A stretch of 64,000 nucleotides of DNA from Spirochaetes bacterium GWB1_60_80 (GTDB lineage Bacteria; Spirochaetota; Spirochaetia; Treponematales; UBA12059): positions 1 through 64,000 of the forward strand of contig MIAR01000039.1 of assembly GCA_001829185.1 (NCBI GenBank), given 5' to 3'. The translations under genes and the position numbers were made by a program. Shown here one piece after another: positions 50,120-57,611 of the stretch. The stretch's first letter is position 1, and each line of letters opens with the position of its first letter. The notes under the pieces are model-generated. The model was not told the DNA's origin. It saw only the letters and a program-made list of their open reading frames with translations, and did not search any database.

Positions 50120-50671
50120 TCAGGCTGCCGGACGGCGCAGCTTCCGGACGGTGGAGCGGATACTGAACAGCAAGGTCACCAGCAACGGCGCAGCGAAAGC
50201 CCAGGGCAGCACACTAACCAGGACCGCAGAACCGGTCAGGCTTTTCAGGTACGCCAGGTCGACCAGGTGGCCGACGCCGCGCGCCAGCAGGTACAGCAGG
50301 ATGCCACAGTCAAAAATGGCCAAGCCGATCTCGGCCCGGCGCAGCCCGACGGCCAGACGGGCCGGCCAGAAGCCGGCCGCCTGGTACAGGAAATCAGCCG
50401 CGAACCTGACCAGCAACAGAGGCGTCAGGCGGCGCAGTCCGGCGCCGAACAAGCCCAACAGGGTACAGCCGCCGCCGGGTGGGCAAACTTGGGCGCTGCC
50501 GTACAGCCGGGCCAGCAGGGCCATAGTCACGCCGGTCAAGACCAGGCCGATTACTAGGTCGCGCTTGCGCGGCGTTTCTGCCGGCGAGGCGGCCGACGGG
50601 ACGGCCGACGTCGATTGATCCGACTTGTCCGGCTGACCCGGTTGGTTCGATTCGGCGGATGGCTTGGTCAT
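50120..50671 (-). CDS. Hypothetical membrane protein at the end of the cofactor operon
   Basis: A 183-aa protein with a 37-residue polar, Ser/Pro/Ala-rich N-terminus. Helices follow at about 38-57 (VIGLVLTGVTMALLARLYG), 70-95, 105-130 and 135-170, ending in a basic tail (RSTVRKLRRPAA). Between the first two helices lies VCPPGGGC, a possible disulfide or metal site. The ATG at 50671 has AAGGAG 7 nt upstream; a TTG at 50677 is the alternative. It starts 18 bp after mog, so it is probably the ninth gene of the tup/mo operon. Not recognised. Confidence 0.65.
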   Translation of the reverse strand: MTKPSAESNQPGQPDKSDQSTSAVPSAASPAETPRKRDLVIGLVLTGVTMALLARLYGSAQVCPPGGGCTLLGLFGAGLRRLTPLLLVRFAADFLYQAAGFWPARLAVGLRRAEIGLAIFDCGILLYLLARGVGHLVDLAYLKSLTGSAVLVSVLPWAFAAPLLVTLLFSIRSTVRKLRRPAA

Positions 50672-50689
50672 GGTCAACTCCTTGTTCCT

Positions 50690-51157
50690 TCAGTGGCCCT
50701 GGCCCAGAGCCATATTGCGGCCGTGCTCCAAGAGCGGTGCGCATAGCCGGGCGCAAAGACTGGCAGCGCGGACGCTGCCCGGCGCGTTCACCACGTAGGT
50801 GGTGCCGCGCAGGCCGGCAGCGGCCCGGCTGAAAACGGCGTGCGGCGTTTCCTTGAGCGACTCGGCGCGCAGGTACTCGGCCAGGCCGGGCAGCTCGCGG
50901 TCGATGAAGTCGCGCGTCGCCTCCGGCGTCACGTCGCGCGGGGCCGGGCCGGTACCACCGGTAGTAAATATCCAGTCACAGTCGATTTGGGCTTGCAGGG
51001 CGGCCAGGATGGCGGCCCGCTCGTCCGGCACCACACAGGCCACGGTCTGGAGGTCGGGCACGGCGGCGGTCAAGGCTTCCAGCATGGCCGGGCCGGACAA
51101 ATCAGCATACTCGCCGCGACTGGCCCGGTCAGATACGGTAATGACAGCGACTTTCAT
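50690..51157 (-). CDS. mog: Molybdopterin adenylyltransferase (MogA/MoaB family)
   Basis: A 155-aa protein that adenylates molybdopterin before metal insertion by MoeA. Signatures: VITVSDRASRGEYADLSGP, IFTTGGTGPAPRDVTPEAT and VVNAPGSVRAA (usually LPGSP-like; here Ala replaces Leu). The start overlaps the MOSC gene end by 29 bp. The organisation MOSC followed by mog is common in anaerobes, where the two are sometimes fused. The end leaves an 18-bp gap to the membrane protein gene. Confidence 0.9.
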   Translation of the reverse strand: MKVAVITVSDRASRGEYADLSGPAMLEALTAAVPDLQTVACVVPDERAAILAALQAQIDCDWIFTTGGTGPAPRDVTPEATRDFIDRELPGLAEYLRAESLKETPHAVFSRAAAGLRGTTYVVNAPGSVRAASLCARLCAPLLEHGRNMALGQGH

Positions 51158-51650
51158 GGTCGATCCAGCCTTCCTTGATTACTTTGGCGAAAATACCCTT
51201 ACGCGGCATGACGCAATCGCCGACGGCCTGGTAGATGGCGCAACCGTGGTGGCACTCCTTGCCGATCTGCGTCACCTCCAGCTCGGCCTCGCCCAGGTAG
51301 AGGCGGGCGCCTATTGGTAAGGCCGACAGGTCAAGACCGCGGGTGGTGATGTTCTCGGCGAAGATGCCGGGGTCCAGTTCCACGCCCTTGCCGCGCATCA
51401 CTTCAATATCCTCGTCGGCCAGCAGCGACACCTGACGGTGCCAATTGCGGGCGTGGGCATCGCCCTCGATGCCATGGTCAACCTTCAGAAAAACCCGTTC
51501 CACGGTCTGCTTGCGCACGCCGACAACCTCGGAAACATTGACGGCCACCAGTGAAAAGGCGCCGGTCGGCGGCAATAACAGGGTAGCGTTCGGGGTAGTC
51601 AGGCGGGCGTTCGGGTCAGCCGGCTTGACCTGGTCAGCAGATGCGGGCAT
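51129..51650 (-). CDS. MOSC domain protein
   Basis: A 173-aa MOSC (molybdenum cofactor sulfurase C-terminal) domain protein. Such domains bind or transfer the cofactor or its sulfur. Conserved part: VDHGIEGDAHARNWHRQVSLL and IGKECHHGCAIYQAVGDCVMP, including the conserved Cys residues. A 40-residue Pro/Thr-rich N-terminus precedes the domain. The start at 51650 has AAGGAGG 8 nt upstream and overlaps moaC by 17 bp. It lies between moaC and mog in the cofactor operon. Confidence 0.88.
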   Translation of the reverse strand: MPASADQVKPADPNARLTTPNATLLLPPTGAFSLVAVNVSEVVGVRKQTVERVFLKVDHGIEGDAHARNWHRQVSLLADEDIEVMRGKGVELDPGIFAENITTRGLDLSALPIGARLYLGEAELEVTQIGKECHHGCAIYQAVGDCVMPRKGIFAKVIKEGWIDHESRCHYRI

Positions 51651-52110
51651 CGGGAGCCTCCTTGGTTTTTTCCAGTAAATGCAACTTGTCGATGGACATA
51701 GCCTTGTCGACCGCCTTACACATGTCATAAATAGTTAACGCCGCCACGCTGGCGGCGGTCAGGGCTTCCATCTCGATACCGGTCTTATCAGTACAGACCG
51801 CCAGGCTCTCGATGTCGATCCGGTCGGCGTGGACCGTGAACTCGACGGCAATGCGGTCGATCTCTATGTTGTGGCAGAGCGGGATCAGTTCGGCGGTCTT
51901 CTTGCCGGCCATAATGCCGGCGATACGCGCCGTGGCTAGGACATCGCCCTTGGCCAGCGAGTTGGCCTTGATCAGGGCGACGGTGCTGGCCGCCAAATGG
52001 ACACTGCAGGCTGCCCGAGCGGTACGCCGCACCCGCGGCTTGCCGGAAACATCGACCATACTGGCCTGGCCGGCGCCATCGACATGGGTCAGGAATTTGC
52101 TGTCTGCCAT
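51634..52110 (-). CDS. moaC: Cyclic pyranopterin monophosphate synthase MoaC
   Basis: A 158-aa enzyme converting the MoaA product to cyclic pyranopterin monophosphate. Signatures: FLTHVDGAGQASMVDVSGK, GDVLATARIAGIMAGKKTAEL with the catalytic Lys, IPLCHNIEIDRI and TDKTGIEMEALTAASVAALT. The start with GGAGGCTGAGC upstream is clear. It lies 2 bp after moaA. moaD and moaE (molybdopterin synthase) are absent from this operon. Confidence 0.95.
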   Translation of the reverse strand: MADSKFLTHVDGAGQASMVDVSGKPRVRRTARAACSVHLAASTVALIKANSLAKGDVLATARIAGIMAGKKTAELIPLCHNIEIDRIAVEFTVHADRIDIESLAVCTDKTGIEMEALTAASVAALTIYDMCKAVDKAMSIDKLHLLEKTKEAPDARIC

Positions 52111-52112
52111 GC

Positions 52113-52994
52113 TCAGCCTCCTATGCTGTTCACGAAATGGTGGCTGGCCTGCTGACCACAAGGTGGTTTCAAGGCCACGCAAGCCCGCAACGAGCCTTCG
52201 ATATCCGACCAATCGACCGGCAGGGTGGCATCGCCATGCAGGCAAGGCCGCAGCTGGCCATCGGCCAGCAGGCGGATGCGGTTGCAGTCGTCGCAGGGCG
52301 GCGGCCGCATGAAATCTCCGTCGTCGCGCTTGGGTTCGTCCAGGCGGTACTGGCGGATGGTTTGCACGGCGCAGCCCAGGCTGGCGGCGAAGGCCTCGAT
52401 GGCCGGCAACTCGTCTATGCCGGAGGCCGGTTGCAGGACAGCCGACGCCGGGGCATCTGCCACTGGATCGGCCTGCCCAGCCTGCCCGGCAGGACAGCCA
52501 CTGCCCTGCCCCGTACCGACCACCACATTCAGCTTGACCGGTAGACCGGCGGCCCGCGCCGCGCGTATGCCGGCCAAGGCCTCTGACAACTGGCCGCCCC
52601 GTGTCATGTATTCATAACGGGTCGGGTCAAGGGTGTCAAGCGATATATTTACCGACGTCAGGCCGCTAGCCGCCAAGTCGGAAGCCAGCGGCAGCAAGAG
52701 GATGCCGTTGGTGGTCATGCCCAGCTGACTGATGCCGGGAATGCCGGCCAGCAAGCGCACCAGCCCGACCATGCCCTTGCGAGCTAGCGGCTCGCCGCCG
52801 GTTAAGCGCACCTTGTCGAAGCCAAGGCCGGCCGCCACCGTTACCAAACGCGTTATTTGTTCGTAACTAAGGATGCTGTCGTGCGGCAGCCAGGGGACAC
52901 CCTCGGCCGGCATACAGTAACGGCAGCGCAGGTTGCAGCGATCGGTGACCGAAACGCGCAGGTAATGGATGCGCCTACCGTATGAGTCGAACAT
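52113..52994 (-). CDS. moaA: GTP 3',8-cyclase MoaA, compact variant
   Basis: A 293-aa radical-SAM enzyme starting cofactor synthesis from GTP. The N-terminal cluster motif CNLRCRYC, the GGEPLARKG segment and the C-terminal cluster PPPCDDCNRIRLLADG with a third Cys 14 residues on are all present. The C-terminal Gly-Gly (NSIGG) is kept. It is about 35 residues shorter than usual. About 45 residues between the FIELMP-type region and the second cluster are missing, and a low-complexity Gly/Ala/Pro insert (GTGQGSGCPAGQAGQADPV) lies after KLNVVV. The start overlaps moeA by 20 bp. Confidence 0.85.
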   Translation of the reverse strand: MFDSYGRRIHYLRVSVTDRCNLRCRYCMPAEGVPWLPHDSILSYEQITRLVTVAAGLGFDKVRLTGGEPLARKGMVGLVRLLAGIPGISQLGMTTNGILLLPLASDLAASGLTSVNISLDTLDPTRYEYMTRGGQLSEALAGIRAARAAGLPVKLNVVVGTGQGSGCPAGQAGQADPVADAPASAVLQPASGIDELPAIEAFAASLGCAVQTIRQYRLDEPKRDDGDFMRPPPCDDCNRIRLLADGQLRPCLHGDATLPVDWSDIEGSLRACVALKPPCGQQASHHFVNSIGG

Positions 52995-54180
52995 CGACCA
53001 GTTCCCCCGCGGACAGTTCCGCCACCCCCACCGCCAGGCAGATGAAGCCATCGACCGCCGCCAGGGCCTGGATAGCCGATGAGCCGCCGTATGGCACGAT
53101 CTCGACGCCGTGCTCACCCAAGCAAACCGGCAGGAATTCAGCGCGGTCCAGCTGCTTGCGCCGGATTGTACTGACCAGCGGCAGGCGGACGGTTAGCGGG
53201 CGGTAGTCCAGGCCGGCCAACCTGGCCAACAGTGGCTTGACCAGCACCTCGGTATTTACGAACACCGACACCGGATTACCCGGCAGCCCGATGACGTGAC
53301 AGCCGGAAGCCTCGTGGAAACCGAAGAAGGTCGGCTTGCCGGGACGCATGGCCACACCGTGAAATATTTCCTTTACGCCGAGTTGAACCAAGGCCCGCGG
53401 CACGTAGTCGAAGTCGCCCATCGAGACGCCGCCGGACAGCACTAGCAGCTGCCGGCCCTCCAGCGCCGCGGCCAAGGCGTCCAGCGTGGCCTGGTAATCA
53501 TCGGGCACCGTGCCGCAATCCTCGGGCTGGCAGGCGTAGCCGGCCAGGTGGGCCAGCAGCTGCGGCCGATTGGAATCGTAGATGCTAGAACCGTGCAGCG
53601 GCTGGCCGGCTTCGACCAGCTCGGTGCCGGTGGACAGCACCGCCACGCGCGGCCGGGTGGCTACTTGTGCCGTGGCCCGGCCATCGGCCGCCAGGATGGC
53701 GATGTCCTGGGCGCGCAGCAGCCGCGGAGAGAGCAGGCAGTCGCCTTGTTTGGCGTTTTCGCCCCGGCGGATGATATTGTCGAATTTTTCCAGCTGGGTA
53801 AAATGGACGCGGCCGTCCCGTTCCACCGCCCACTCGAAGCGCTGGATACAGGCGCTATGCCCGACTACCAGCGGCAATTGCGGTAAGGCCGCCCCGGTCA
53901 TGATGCGCAGCGCCTGACCGGGCTCAAGTGCAGTGGCCGGAGTACCGCCGGCGGCAATGGTGCCGAACGGCTCCAACCCCGCCGCCGGGATATGGCCGGA
54001 AGCGTCGGCCAGCCACAGCCAGCCGTCCATGGCCGCCTTGTCGAAGGGCGGCTGGTCCAGGCTGGCGTACAGCGGCTGCACCAAGAGGCGGCCACAGGCA
54101 GCGGACAATGGAACCGCTTCCGCCGGCAGGCAGATTGGCCGGGCGGCGATGGCGTCCAGGGCTTCTTGCAAAGAAATCAT
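52975..54180 (-). CDS. moeA: Molybdopterin molybdenumtransferase MoeA
   Basis: A 401-aa enzyme that inserts molybdate or tungstate into adenylated molybdopterin. Signatures: FDKAAMDGWLWLAD, IMTGAALPQ, NAKQGDCLL, VAVLSTGTELVEAG, LSGGVSMGDFDYVP and IGLPGNPVSVFV. The start overlaps tupC by 4 bp. Placement directly after a tungstate transporter suggests the inserted metal may be tungsten, but sequence alone does not separate the two. Confidence 0.94.
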   Translation of the reverse strand: MISLQEALDAIAARPICLPAEAVPLSAACGRLLVQPLYASLDQPPFDKAAMDGWLWLADASGHIPAAGLEPFGTIAAGGTPATALEPGQALRIMTGAALPQLPLVVGHSACIQRFEWAVERDGRVHFTQLEKFDNIIRRGENAKQGDCLLSPRLLRAQDIAILAADGRATAQVATRPRVAVLSTGTELVEAGQPLHGSSIYDSNRPQLLAHLAGYACQPEDCGTVPDDYQATLDALAAALEGRQLLVLSGGVSMGDFDYVPRALVQLGVKEIFHGVAMRPGKPTFFGFHEASGCHVIGLPGNPVSVFVNTEVLVKPLLARLAGLDYRPLTVRLPLVSTIRRKQLDRAEFLPVCLGEHGVEIVPYGGSSAIQALAAVDGFICLAVGVAELSAGELVDVRLIR

Positions 54181-54857
54181 CTATAGTGCTCCCCTGCCGG
54201 GACCAGCGGTTCGGGTTTCCCTTGGTCAAAAAGGCAAACCAGGTCGGCCAGACCAGCCACCAAGCTATCGTCATGGGCGCTGAACAACAGGCTCAGGCCG
54301 TCTTTCTTCAAGGTAATCAGAATATCACGCAGTGCCAGGTCCGAGGCCCGGTCCATGGACGAGGTCGGCTCGTCTAGCAGCAGCACGTCGGCGCCGATGG
54401 CCAGCGCGCGGGCCAGGGCCACCCGCTGCGTCTCGCCGCCGGACAGATGCGGCGCGGTGCGGTCCAGCAGCTCAAGGATGCCCAGCCGTTGCGCGGCCGA
54501 CTGCAGTCGCTCTTCCAGTTCCCGGCCGCGAAATTTCTTCAGCTTGAGGGCGTAGACCAGGTTGGAGCGTACCGTGCCGGCAAACAGCACCGGATGCTGG
54601 TGCACGTACACCGAGCGCCGCCGCAGCTCGGCGTTTCCCGGCAACGGCCGGCCGGCGAACCGAACCGTGCCCTGGTACGGCCCAACCAAGCCATTCAGTA
54701 GCTTGAGCAGGGTGGTCTTGCCGGAGCCGTTCGGGCCGACGAAGGCGATGGCCTGGCCGGCCGGCAGCTCCAGCCGCTGGCAGTTCAGCACCGGGCGGCG
54801 GCTGTAGGCGAAGTGCAGCCGCTCCAACTCAAACAAAGGCGTCGGGTTAAGCGGCAT
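54177..54857 (-). CDS. tupC: Tungstate ABC transporter ATPase TupC
   Basis: A 226-aa ABC ATPase powering anion import. Walker A FVGPNGSGKTTLLKLLNG, signature LSGGETQRVALARAL, Walker B VLLLDEPTSSMD. The substrate follows from its neighbours: it overlaps tupB by 11 bp and moeA by 4 bp. No C-terminal molybdate-binding (MOP) domain is present, which fits TupC rather than ModC. Confidence 0.92.
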   Translation of the reverse strand: MPLNPTPLFELERLHFAYSRRPVLNCQRLELPAGQAIAFVGPNGSGKTTLLKLLNGLVGPYQGTVRFAGRPLPGNAELRRRSVYVHQHPVLFAGTVRSNLVYALKLKKFRGRELEERLQSAAQRLGILELLDRTAPHLSGGETQRVALARALAIGADVLLLDEPTSSMDRASDLALRDILITLKKDGLSLLFSAHDDSLVAGLADLVCLFDQGKPEPLVPAGEHYR

Positions 54858-55527
54858 CGCGCACCGCCAGGTGGCTGGCCATGTTGATGATCAGGGCGAT
54901 AGCCAGCAATACTACGCCCAGAGCCACGGCCCGCTCGAACTGCCCTTTGCCGGCTTCCAAGGCGATGGTGGTGGTGATGGTGCGCGTGTACCAGCGGATA
55001 TTGCCGCCCAGCATCATCGATACGCCGACTTCGCCGGAGACGCGCCCCAGGGCGGCCAGCACGGTCTGCAGCATCACGAAGCGGCCTTCTTTCAGGATGC
55101 CCAGCAGGCGGCGCCAGCGGCCGGCGCCGAGGGTCAACAGGGTTTCGTGATAGCGCGGATCGAGTTTCTGGAGCCCGGTATAGGTCATGGCGATGACCAG
55201 CGGGAAGGCCAGGATGGACTGCCCGGCGATAACCCCGGCCGGAGCGTACAGCCAGCCGAGGCCGCCGAGCGGCCCGGAGCGCGACAGGAAGGAATAGACG
55301 AACAGACCGATCACCACCGTCGGTACCGACATGATGGCGTTAACGGTGGCAGCCAAGGCGCGCCGACCACGGAAGCGGCCCAGGAACAGAGCCGCCCCGG
55401 CCGGCACGCCCGGCACGATAGCCAGGACGGTCGACCAGAACGAGAACTGGAGCGTGGTGCCAATGGTCCACCAGATTTCCCGGTCGCCACTGAACAATAA
55501 TTCCAGCGAGTGTCGCAACGCGCCCAT
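54847..55527 (-). CDS. tupB: Tungstate ABC transporter permease TupB
   Basis: A 226-aa inner-membrane permease with five or six helices. It has the cytoplasmic loop for the ATPase (LLTLGAGRWRRLLGILKEG, an EAA-like motif). ATIGTTLQFSF-like and VPTVVIGLFVYSFLSRSGPLG segments match TupB/WtpB-type permeases. The ATG at 55527 is used; a TTG at 55530 is adjacent. It lies 11 bp after tupA. Confidence 0.9.
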   Translation of the reverse strand: MGALRHSLELLFSGDREIWWTIGTTLQFSFWSTVLAIVPGVPAGAALFLGRFRGRRALAATVNAIMSVPTVVIGLFVYSFLSRSGPLGGLGWLYAPAGVIAGQSILAFPLVIAMTYTGLQKLDPRYHETLLTLGAGRWRRLLGILKEGRFVMLQTVLAALGRVSGEVGVSMMLGGNIRWYTRTITTTIALEAGKGQFERAVALGVVLLAIALIINMASHLAVRDAA

Positions 55528-55538
55528 CAAGTAGCCGC

Positions 55539-56411
55539 CTATTCCCGGTAACTGGGATAGAACAGCTGCTTGCCGTTGATCATGAACTGGGCGATCAGCT
55601 GCTGGCCGCGGGGGCTAGTCAGCCACTCCAGGAAGGTTGTAGCCCCGGCGGCGTTGATGGCCGGATTCTTGGCCGGGTTGACGGTGATGACGCCGTAGGG
55701 ATTAAACAGCAAGGAGTCGCCTTCGTAGCGGATACCGAGAGTAGAGCGCTCCATCACGGCCAGCCAGGTGCCGCGGTCGGTGAGGGTGTAAGCGGCCATA
55801 TTGTCGGCCATGATGATGACCTGCTCCATGCCCTGCCCGGCCTCGCGGTACCATTCGCCGGCCGGGTTGACGCCGGCGCGCTGCCAAAGTGACTTTTCCA
55901 TAACATGGGTGCCGGAATTGTCGCCGCGGCTAACGAAGATGGCGCCGCTGGCCTGGATGCGCCGGAAGGCCTCCACCGCGTTGGCGGAGAGGGCGATGTT
56001 GGCCGGGTCAGCAGCCGGACCGATGATGACGAAGTCATTGTACATGACGTCGCGCCGGACGGCGCCGTGGCCGGCCGCCATGAAGGCGTCCTCCAGGGCG
56101 CGGGCGTGGACCAGCAGCACGTCGGCGTCGGCGTTCTGGCCGAGAGTCAGGGCGGCGCCGGTGCCGACGGCCACCACGTCGACGGTGTAGCCGGTGTCCT
56201 TGGTGAATTCCGGCAGCAGGAAATCGAGCAGGCCGGTGTTGTCGGTGCTGGTGGTGGTGGCCAGGCGGACGCGCGGGTTCTCGGGCGTAGGCACGGCCGG
56301 CGGCGTAGTCGCCTTGTCGCCGAAGGCAAAGAGCGGGCCAGCGACCAGCAGGCAGAGCAGCGTCAGAACGACGCCGCGACGGAACAAAATCCGTCGGGTG
56401 GAGTGAGTCAT
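55539..56411 (-). CDS. tupA: Tungstate-binding protein TupA
   Basis: A 290-aa periplasmic binding protein. The signal peptide (RRGVVLTLLCLLVAGPLFAFG) is followed by the TupA oxyanion motif RLATTTSTDNTGLLDFLLP, where the TTTS residues bind tungstate. Further signatures: AVGTGAALTLGQNADADVLLVHA, DFVIIGPAADPANI and SRGDNSGTHVMEKSLW. The ATG at 56411 with AAAGGGGAC upstream is chosen; in-frame sequence further up is leader. It heads the tup/mo operon and lies 27 nt after a structured RNA candidate. Confidence 0.93.
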   Translation of the reverse strand: MTHSTRRILFRRGVVLTLLCLLVAGPLFAFGDKATTPPAVPTPENPRVRLATTTSTDNTGLLDFLLPEFTKDTGYTVDVVAVGTGAALTLGQNADADVLLVHARALEDAFMAAGHGAVRRDVMYNDFVIIGPAADPANIALSANAVEAFRRIQASGAIFVSRGDNSGTHVMEKSLWQRAGVNPAGEWYREAGQGMEQVIIMADNMAAYTLTDRGTWLAVMERSTLGIRYEGDSLLFNPYGVITVNPAKNPAINAAGATTFLEWLTSPRGQQLIAQFMINGKQLFYPSYRE

Positions 56412-56437
56412 GGAGTCCCCTTTCCAATGTCCTATCG

Positions 56438-56538
56438 CCACCTGACGGCGGCGGGACGGGAGGCGGCCCGGTTTCCCGGACTGCCCATCGGCGGTGGCAC
56501 CATACCACTTGCAGCGGGAAAAACCCGACCGCCGGTGG
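56438..56538 (-). ncRNA. Moco/Tuco-like riboswitch candidate before tupA
   Basis: A GC-rich structured leader on the minus strand. Outer pairing: CCACC (56534-56538) with GGTGG (56438-56442). P1-like pairing: GGCGGTCGGG (56524-56533) with CCCGTCCCGCC (56450-56460). Between them are GCCACC (56493-56498), a GNRA hairpin CCGG-GAAA-CCGG (56468-56479) and GCCTCCCGT (56456-56464). As I recall it, the E. coli moaA leader has the same GCCACC...GCCTCCCGT pair around a stem. The 3' strand of P1 ends about 25 nt before the tupA ribosome binding site, so folding could control translation. The region is shorter than a full Moco RNA, as in Tuco variants. Confidence 0.5.
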
Positions 56539-56687
56539 CTGCAGGCGCAACCGCTCGGTGAACATGTTTGTGTGGTCCGGCTTCCGGCTGGAAGGCGCAC
56601 CGCGACCCTGACAGGGCCGCAGCCATCATACCCCACCGGGGGCAAGGGGTCAACAACTTTCGCGAGAGAACAAATAGCTACAGAATG
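56539..56687 (-). other. Upstream part of the 366-bp tupA leader region
   Basis: No gene is visible between the RNA candidate and the terminator. A short inverted repeat (CCCTG/CAGGG near 56610) and AT-richer sequence near 56655-56690 occur. The tup promoter should lie here but no convincing -35/-10 pair was found. Confidence 0.3.
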
Positions 56688-56777: not shown

Positions 56778-57611
56778 TCATTTCGTAAGCAAGGCCTCAA
56801 GATCAGCCTGGGTGTAAACGTGGGTTGCCAACAGCTTGTTGGCGTTGTCATAAACCTTAACCGTGACTTCCAGAGTGAAATTCTGAGCAACCTCAGAAGC
56901 ATTCTCTATGGAAACATTTTCCAGATCCAAGGACTGCACCAGCTTGAAGCTGATGATGAACTTGCCACCTTTATGAGTGTCGGTAGCGTTCACCGAAACG
57001 CCGATATTGAATGCCACAGCCATCGAACCATCGGCCGTATATGTGTAGTTAGTCGAATTGATGCTGGCATTTACATTGCCCTTAGCCTTCAGGTAGCCTT
57101 CGGCACCGGCCAGATCACCCATTGGTCCGAGCACGGCGTGCATGTCAAGATCACCACTGGCCACGATATTGTCACCAGGCTGAACCATACCGGTCACGGC
57201 GCAGTTGGCGGTGCCATTCACCACCAGGCCATCAAGCTGGAAGCTTTCGTCGGAAATAACGACGCTATAGTTCATGTTGCCATTTGCATCAAACTCCAGC
57301 TCTCCCGTCGGGGTAATAACACGAGAGGAGGCGGCGCTCGGCCGGTACAGCAAGTCAATGGTGGGGAAGGCCTGACGAATCACCGGCATCAACGGCGACA
57401 GAGCCCTAGCCATGATCGGCGTACCAGCACTAACAACGGCCATGGTGGAAGCAGCCACGATTTCATCTTTGGTGCTGGCAACCTCGCCGGTAAAAGCCGG
57501 CAAAGCCGTCGGGGCCACCGGGTCGGCATTATAAAACAGTTGATCCAAAAGCTCGCAACCAGACAGAGCCACGGCCACGATGGCCAATCCCAGAATAAAA
57601 AACTTCTTCAT
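56778..57611 (-). CDS. Lipoprotein of unknown function
   Basis: A 277-aa exported lipoprotein. Signal peptide MKKFFILGLAIVAVALSGC has the lipobox LSGC at residues 16-19. The mature part is beta-strand rich with alternating hydrophobic residues (MNYSVVISDESFQLDGLVV, FIISFKLVQSLDL), perhaps a lipocalin- or LolA-like barrel; this is only a guess. GGAGGATGT precedes the ATG. A strong promoter and two palindromes lie upstream and a strong terminator downstream, so it is monocistronic. GC content is lower than the surroundings, which may reflect high expression or a different origin. Confidence 0.75.
   Translation of the reverse strand: MKKFFILGLAIVAVALSGCELLDQLFYNADPVAPTALPAFTGEVASTKDEIVAASTMAVVSAGTPIMARALSPLMPVIRQAFPTIDLLYRPSAASSRVITPTGELEFDANGNMNYSVVISDESFQLDGLVVNGTANCAVTGMVQPGDNIVASGDLDMHAVLGPMGDLAGAEGYLKAKGNVNASINSTNYTYTADGSMAVAFNIGVSVNATDTHKGGKFIISFKLVQSLDLENVSIENASEVAQNFTLEVTVKVYDNANKLLATHVYTQADLEALLTK

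Follow-up and report, generated by a model that had tools for sequence, protein, structure and literature searches.

A P3-less Moco/Tuco riboswitch, very probably a translational OFF switch, in the tupA leader of a spirochaete genome

The window examined here, a 64,000-nucleotide stretch of the genome of Spirochaetes bacterium GWB1_60_80, an uncultured member of the phylum Spirochaetota, carries on its minus strand a run of genes in the order tupABC-moeA-moaA-moaC-MOSC-mogA. Treponema pallidum falls in the same order: one relative (1.1 Mb) encodes a protein matching TroA of that species (PDB entry 1toa) with no mismatch across almost the full protein. A reading made from the sequence alone had proposed a Moco-like RNA ahead of a transporter and cofactor operon, and the annotation supports this setting, with genes for a tungstate ABC transporter followed by genes for Moco/Tuco synthesis. 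The features of the locus are as follows.

56625..56653, minus strand: predicted sigma-70-type promoter, TTGACC-17-TATGAT (10/12 matches; a consensus match only)
56401..56572, minus strand: Moco/Tuco riboswitch aptamer, P3-less (RF01055; model positions 1-135/135, with the P3 positions deleted)
55539..56411, minus strand: tupA, tungstate-binding protein, 290 aa, ATG at 56411 (NF041772, 225 bits, equivalog cut-off 400; PF12849)
54847..55530, minus strand: tupB, permease (NF041773, 188 bits, cut-off 320; NF038017 above its cut-off)
54177..54857, minus strand: tupC, ATPase (ABC_tran; named from its operon position)
52975..54180, minus strand: moeA
52113..53117, minus strand: moaA
51634..52245, minus strand: moaC (TIGR00581, above its cut-off)
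51129..51728, minus strand: MOSC-domain protein
50690..51157, minus strand: mogA/moaB-like molybdopterin-binding protein

The matches of TupA, TupB and MoaA fall below their NCBIfam equivalog cut-offs. The predicted promoter, a near-consensus sequence a short way ahead of the RNA, is the only promoter-like site in the region, and 0.1 such sites are expected in shuffled sequences. Immediately upstream of the operon lies a predicted lipoprotein-like ORF of 277 aa (56778-57611, minus strand), and a 185-aa ORF without an NCBIfam or Pfam match (50120-50677, minus strand) is found within the run of cofactor genes.

When the whole window was compared with Rfam 15, the only match above its cut-off was to RF01055, on the minus strand from 56572 to 56401 (E 1.5e-7; score 45.2 bits, cut-off 36), and it spans the complete model. 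The RNA in the tupA leader truly belongs to the Moco/Tuco riboswitch family, in its P3-less form. The covariance-model search suggested along with the sequence-only reading is thus positive, and the Moco-type structured RNA that it claimed is present far beyond chance expectation. Weak matches near the site to snoZ206, rsmX and other Rfam families scored under their cut-offs and were ignored.

Several details of that reading need revision. The span it gave (56538-56438) cuts the element short at both ends, so that both strands of P1 and the 5' strand of P2 fall outside it. Nor is the RNA shorter than a full Moco RNA, as had been thought; at 172 nt it is longer than the consensus (135 positions), the extra length coming from inserts at the P2 and P5 tips, where it carries approximately 28 and 30 bases, respectively, in place of the 4 in the model. 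The missing P3 is nonetheless real, and of the two identities offered, a tungsten-cofactor variant or a new sub-type, the RNA corresponds to the former, which is the published P3-less (‘Tuco’) form. The parts listed below were assigned from the RF01055 alignment together with an explicit fold, except where stated.

56557..56563, minus strand: P1 5' strand, GUUCACC, with one bulged A (alignment, fold; P1 covaries in relatives)
56544..56554, minus strand: P2 5' strand, GCGGUUGCGCC (alignment, fold; P2 covaries, with 9/9 pairs changed on both sides)
56545-56539, minus strand: CCUGCAG half of the receptor-like bulge in P2
56504..56539, minus strand: enlarged P2 tip hairpin, an insert of ~28 nt relative to the model (alignment insert, fold)
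56500..56504, minus strand: UAUGG half of the GAAA-tetraloop-receptor-like bulge in P2 (sequence; matches the Rfam consensus)
56491..56501, minus strand: P2 3' strand, GGUGCCACCGC, containing GCCACC (alignment, fold)
56487..56490, minus strand: 4-nt linker CGAU at the place of P3, which is absent (P3 positions deleted in the alignment; fold)
56461..56486, minus strand: P4 hairpin with a GAAA loop at 56475-56472 (alignment, fold; P4 covaries)
56464-56456, minus strand: conserved GCCUCCCGU at the P4/P5 junction (alignment)
56424..56460, minus strand: lengthened P5 (CC/GG, GUCC/GGAC, CGCCGCC/GGUGGCG; fold; in relatives the extension's first four pairs form and covary)
56415..56420, minus strand: P1 3' strand, GGGGAC, pairing with 56563-56557 (alignment, fold)

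The GAAA-capped hairpin that had been noticed by eye corresponds to P4 (56486-56461), and the stretch GCCTCCCGT (56464-56456), singled out at the same time, is indeed the conserved P4/P5 junction. The GGAAAGG motif leads into P1 on its 3' side. Judged by eye, the receptor in P2 represents a variant form of the canonical 11-nt motif. The GCCACC string had also been equated with a position in the E. coli moaA RNA. We reject this homology because in the Rfam consensus gccacc makes up the 3' side of P3, a stem that this RNA lacks, and the string in the tupA leader instead belongs to the 3' strand of P2.

To examine this architecture in relatives, 149 related genomes were searched with RF01055, of which 50 gave a match, and 78 stretches were fetched. 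The strands of P3-less RNAs were excised mainly by means of sequence anchors (CGA, GAAA, CCUCCC, AAAGG and a fixed linker), and 22 RNAs were aligned. Among these, 84.3% of the cells for P1, P2 and P4 are paired, compared with 63.1% in shuffles and 40-49% when the partners are slid by 1-3 columns, and both sides have changed in 22/27 pairs (covariation score 0.606 vs 0.226), although these figures lean somewhat towards structure since the choice of anchors partly used pairing. Covariation in relatives, the other check proposed at the outset, is therefore positive for all three stems. The extension of P5 is carried by 11 P3-less tup or moeA leaders, and its first four pairs form in ten of these and three of the four in the remaining one, by way of GUCC/GGAC, GCCC/GGGC, GCAC/GUGC or GAGG/CCUC. 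On these comparative grounds, we regard the extension as a real helix in the family to which the tupA leader belongs.

The position of the RNA relative to its ORF points to control of translation. The sequence GGGGA (56420-56416) serves as the tupA Shine-Dalgarno and also forms part of the P1 3' strand, just before the tupA ATG, and it is thus likely that translation is repressed by the ligand. This layout recurs in all 14 P3-less tupA leaders that were measured, with the ATG beginning 7-10 nt past the first base of the P1 3' strand. The same arrangement has been proposed for E. coli moaA, where binding of the ligand would strengthen P1 and mask the ribosome-binding site (PMC2408646). When P1 is formed, the predicted fold has an energy of -82.8 kcal/mol, compared with -85.3 for the unconstrained fold in which P1 is open. 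The 2.5 kcal/mol gap suggests that P1 is poised to switch, which agrees with a switch that requires its ligand. In the unconstrained fold of a longer leader, the Gs of the Shine-Dalgarno are mostly paired with downstream bases as well, and therefore energies alone do not clearly predict the ON state. Under the proposed mechanism, a plentiful tungsten or molybdenum cofactor would bind the core made of P2, P4 and the junction, and this would stabilise P1 and hide the Shine-Dalgarno, such that the entire operon for tungstate uptake and cofactor synthesis would be turned down. When the cofactor is scarce, P1 would open and the operon would be translated. Overall, we assign a probability of about 0.9 to the reading of the tupA leader as a P3-less Moco/Tuco riboswitch that works as a translational OFF switch.

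Two other accounts of the leader carry little weight. Stems form easily in a GC-rich region such as this, and a fold that merely matches the model by chance might be expected on those grounds; set against the E value of 1.5e-7 for the window, the covariation in relatives and the occurrence of the same RNA before tupA in ~30 related genomes, the probability of such a coincidence is negligible. Some family members do use terminators (Regulski et al. 2008, PMC2408646), and premature transcription termination could in principle replace masking of the ribosome-binding site. However, a scan for intrinsic terminators found no terminator-like site between the aptamer and the ATG, which lies just a few bases past P1, and we consider control by termination very improbable.

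The metal to which the proposed P3-less switch would respond is a more difficult matter. In the original description of the class, whose ligand rests on genetic evidence, 58/176 Moco RNAs lack P3 and are linked to tungsten metabolism, and this form was proposed to sense the tungsten cofactor (Regulski et al. 2008, PMC2408646). In the published association, P3 occurs with molybdenum genes only (Regulski et al. 2008). The genome examined here shows the association with tungsten metabolism: in addition to the tup operon, it has four PF01314 loci of the aldehyde ferredoxin oxidoreductase (AOR) type, and a profile search found no match to ModA. Taken together, the tup operon, the AOR-type enzymes and the fact that both P3 and a ModA match are missing suggest, by correlation, that the ligand of the tupA leader would be the tungsten cofactor rather than Moco.

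Leaders across the order do not follow the published association uniformly. For tupA, 17 leaders have P3 and 14 do not, with two more unclassified (one marked so by hand, one that did not parse). The numbers with and without P3, respectively, are 13/0 for YdhV-type operons, 0/3 for AOR, 1/11 for glutamate-semialdehyde dehydrogenase, 0/10 for a pair encoding a solute-binding protein and an Oxidored_molyb protein, and 0/2 for ModA; nine entries underlying all of these counts were set by hand (five reclassified, one tupA leader marked unclassified and three weak matches dropped). The E. coli YdhV enzyme prefers Mo (PMC12096430, PMC13328260), and thus most leaders of enzyme genes fit the P3 rule, whereas the tupA leaders, 17 of which have P3 (L055, L044, L043 and L046 among them), do not. 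ModA above cut-off is absent from most of the searched genomes in which tupA has a P3-bearing leader, with one each in G025 and G039. In named genomes outside the spirochaetes, the RNAs near tupA look P3-less, with the qualifications that one copy (L113) parses ambiguously and that in two cases (L140, L184) the RNA is >1 kb from tupA; one Sediminispirochaeta has P3. The split among tupA leaders weakens P3 as a marker of the metal and makes it unreliable in this order. Either tupA is not specific to tungsten, or the tie between P3 and molybdenum is not strict.

These observations bear directly on the possibility that the RNA, while belonging to the same family and acting in the same mode, senses Moco or both cofactors, with tup as the sole importer for both metals. 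TupABC may indeed serve both metals where no ModA match is found, and the genome includes one PF00384-type molybdopterin enzyme locus, which together with the mixed P3 state of tupA leaders in the order gives this account some appeal. However, the leader in question lacks P3, as do tupA leaders outside the order, and in the order all three AOR leaders are P3-less and all 13 Mo-preferring YdhV-type leaders bear P3. On balance, we judge sensing of Moco or of both cofactors to be unlikely, with the tungsten cofactor as our preferred ligand.

The RF01055 search also uncovered a second P3-less copy in the same genome (L033; G000:C32:38799-38923, minus strand; 45.8 bits). This RNA directly precedes, or lies at the start of, a gene for L-glutamate gamma-semialdehyde dehydrogenase (TIGR01236, 712 bits, cut-off 613.6), and the same link recurs in 12 genomes from two families. 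In these leaders, the Shine-Dalgarno is mostly located within P1, and often the AUG is as well. The protein is a tungsten-independent, NAD-type aldehyde dehydrogenase (PF00171), a family that is not known to use a pterin cofactor. Its repression by the tungsten cofactor would therefore make sense as an isozyme switch. The literature searched, coverage of which was incomplete, yielded no description of a Moco/Tuco RNA ahead of a gene for this enzyme (P5C dehydrogenase). We tentatively propose, as an idea with somewhat less than even odds, that Tuco-type RNAs form a wider spirochaete regulon in which a metal-independent aldehyde dehydrogenase is turned off when the tungsten cofactor, and hence AOR-type oxidation, is available, and in which P3 does not dictate the metal, with tupA leaders occurring in both forms.

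Other leaders in the order have distinct arrangements. The 13 P3-bearing RNAs of the YdhV type (L056, L054, L047 and others) precede a YdhY-YdhV-like pair and have a spacer between the aptamer and the ATG, in which a hairpin and a second, separate Shine-Dalgarno are often present. This different layout might represent an activating platform, and thus perhaps an ON switch. Ten P3-less RNAs (L078 and nine others) are located before a gene for a MalE-like solute-binding protein, which is followed by one for an Oxidored_molyb (PF00174) domain protein.

Compared with the known class (RF01055; Regulski et al. 2008), the tupA leader has the expected P1, P2 with a tetraloop-receptor bulge and P4 with a GAAA loop, the GCCUCCC and GGAAAGG motifs, and genes for cofactor synthesis and metal uptake downstream, and it shares with E. 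coli moaA the placement of the Shine-Dalgarno within P1. It departs from the consensus in lacking P3 and in its inserts in P2 (~28 nt, at the tip) and in P5 (~30 nt). In the absence of P3, the tup genes downstream and the tungsten-type enzymes of its genome, it resembles the P3-less ‘Tuco’ variant, although its family differs from that variant in having a lengthened, covarying P5, and its host phylum, Spirochaetota, is outside the list given in the abstract of the 2008 report (Regulski et al. 2008). The element itself is ordinary, and the novelty is in the company it keeps: the tupA leader alone is one more predicted tungsten-cofactor riboswitch, and there is more to be gained from the related copies. 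Within one genus (g4), individual genomes have a P3-less RNA before tup and a P3-bearing RNA before the gene for the YdhV-type enzyme, which is reported to prefer Mo. Such pairs, matched within one genome, could be used to test whether P3 determines the choice between Mo and W, a question left unanswered in 2008, and the sister genera in which tupA has a P3-bearing leader provide a natural counter-test of the P3 rule.
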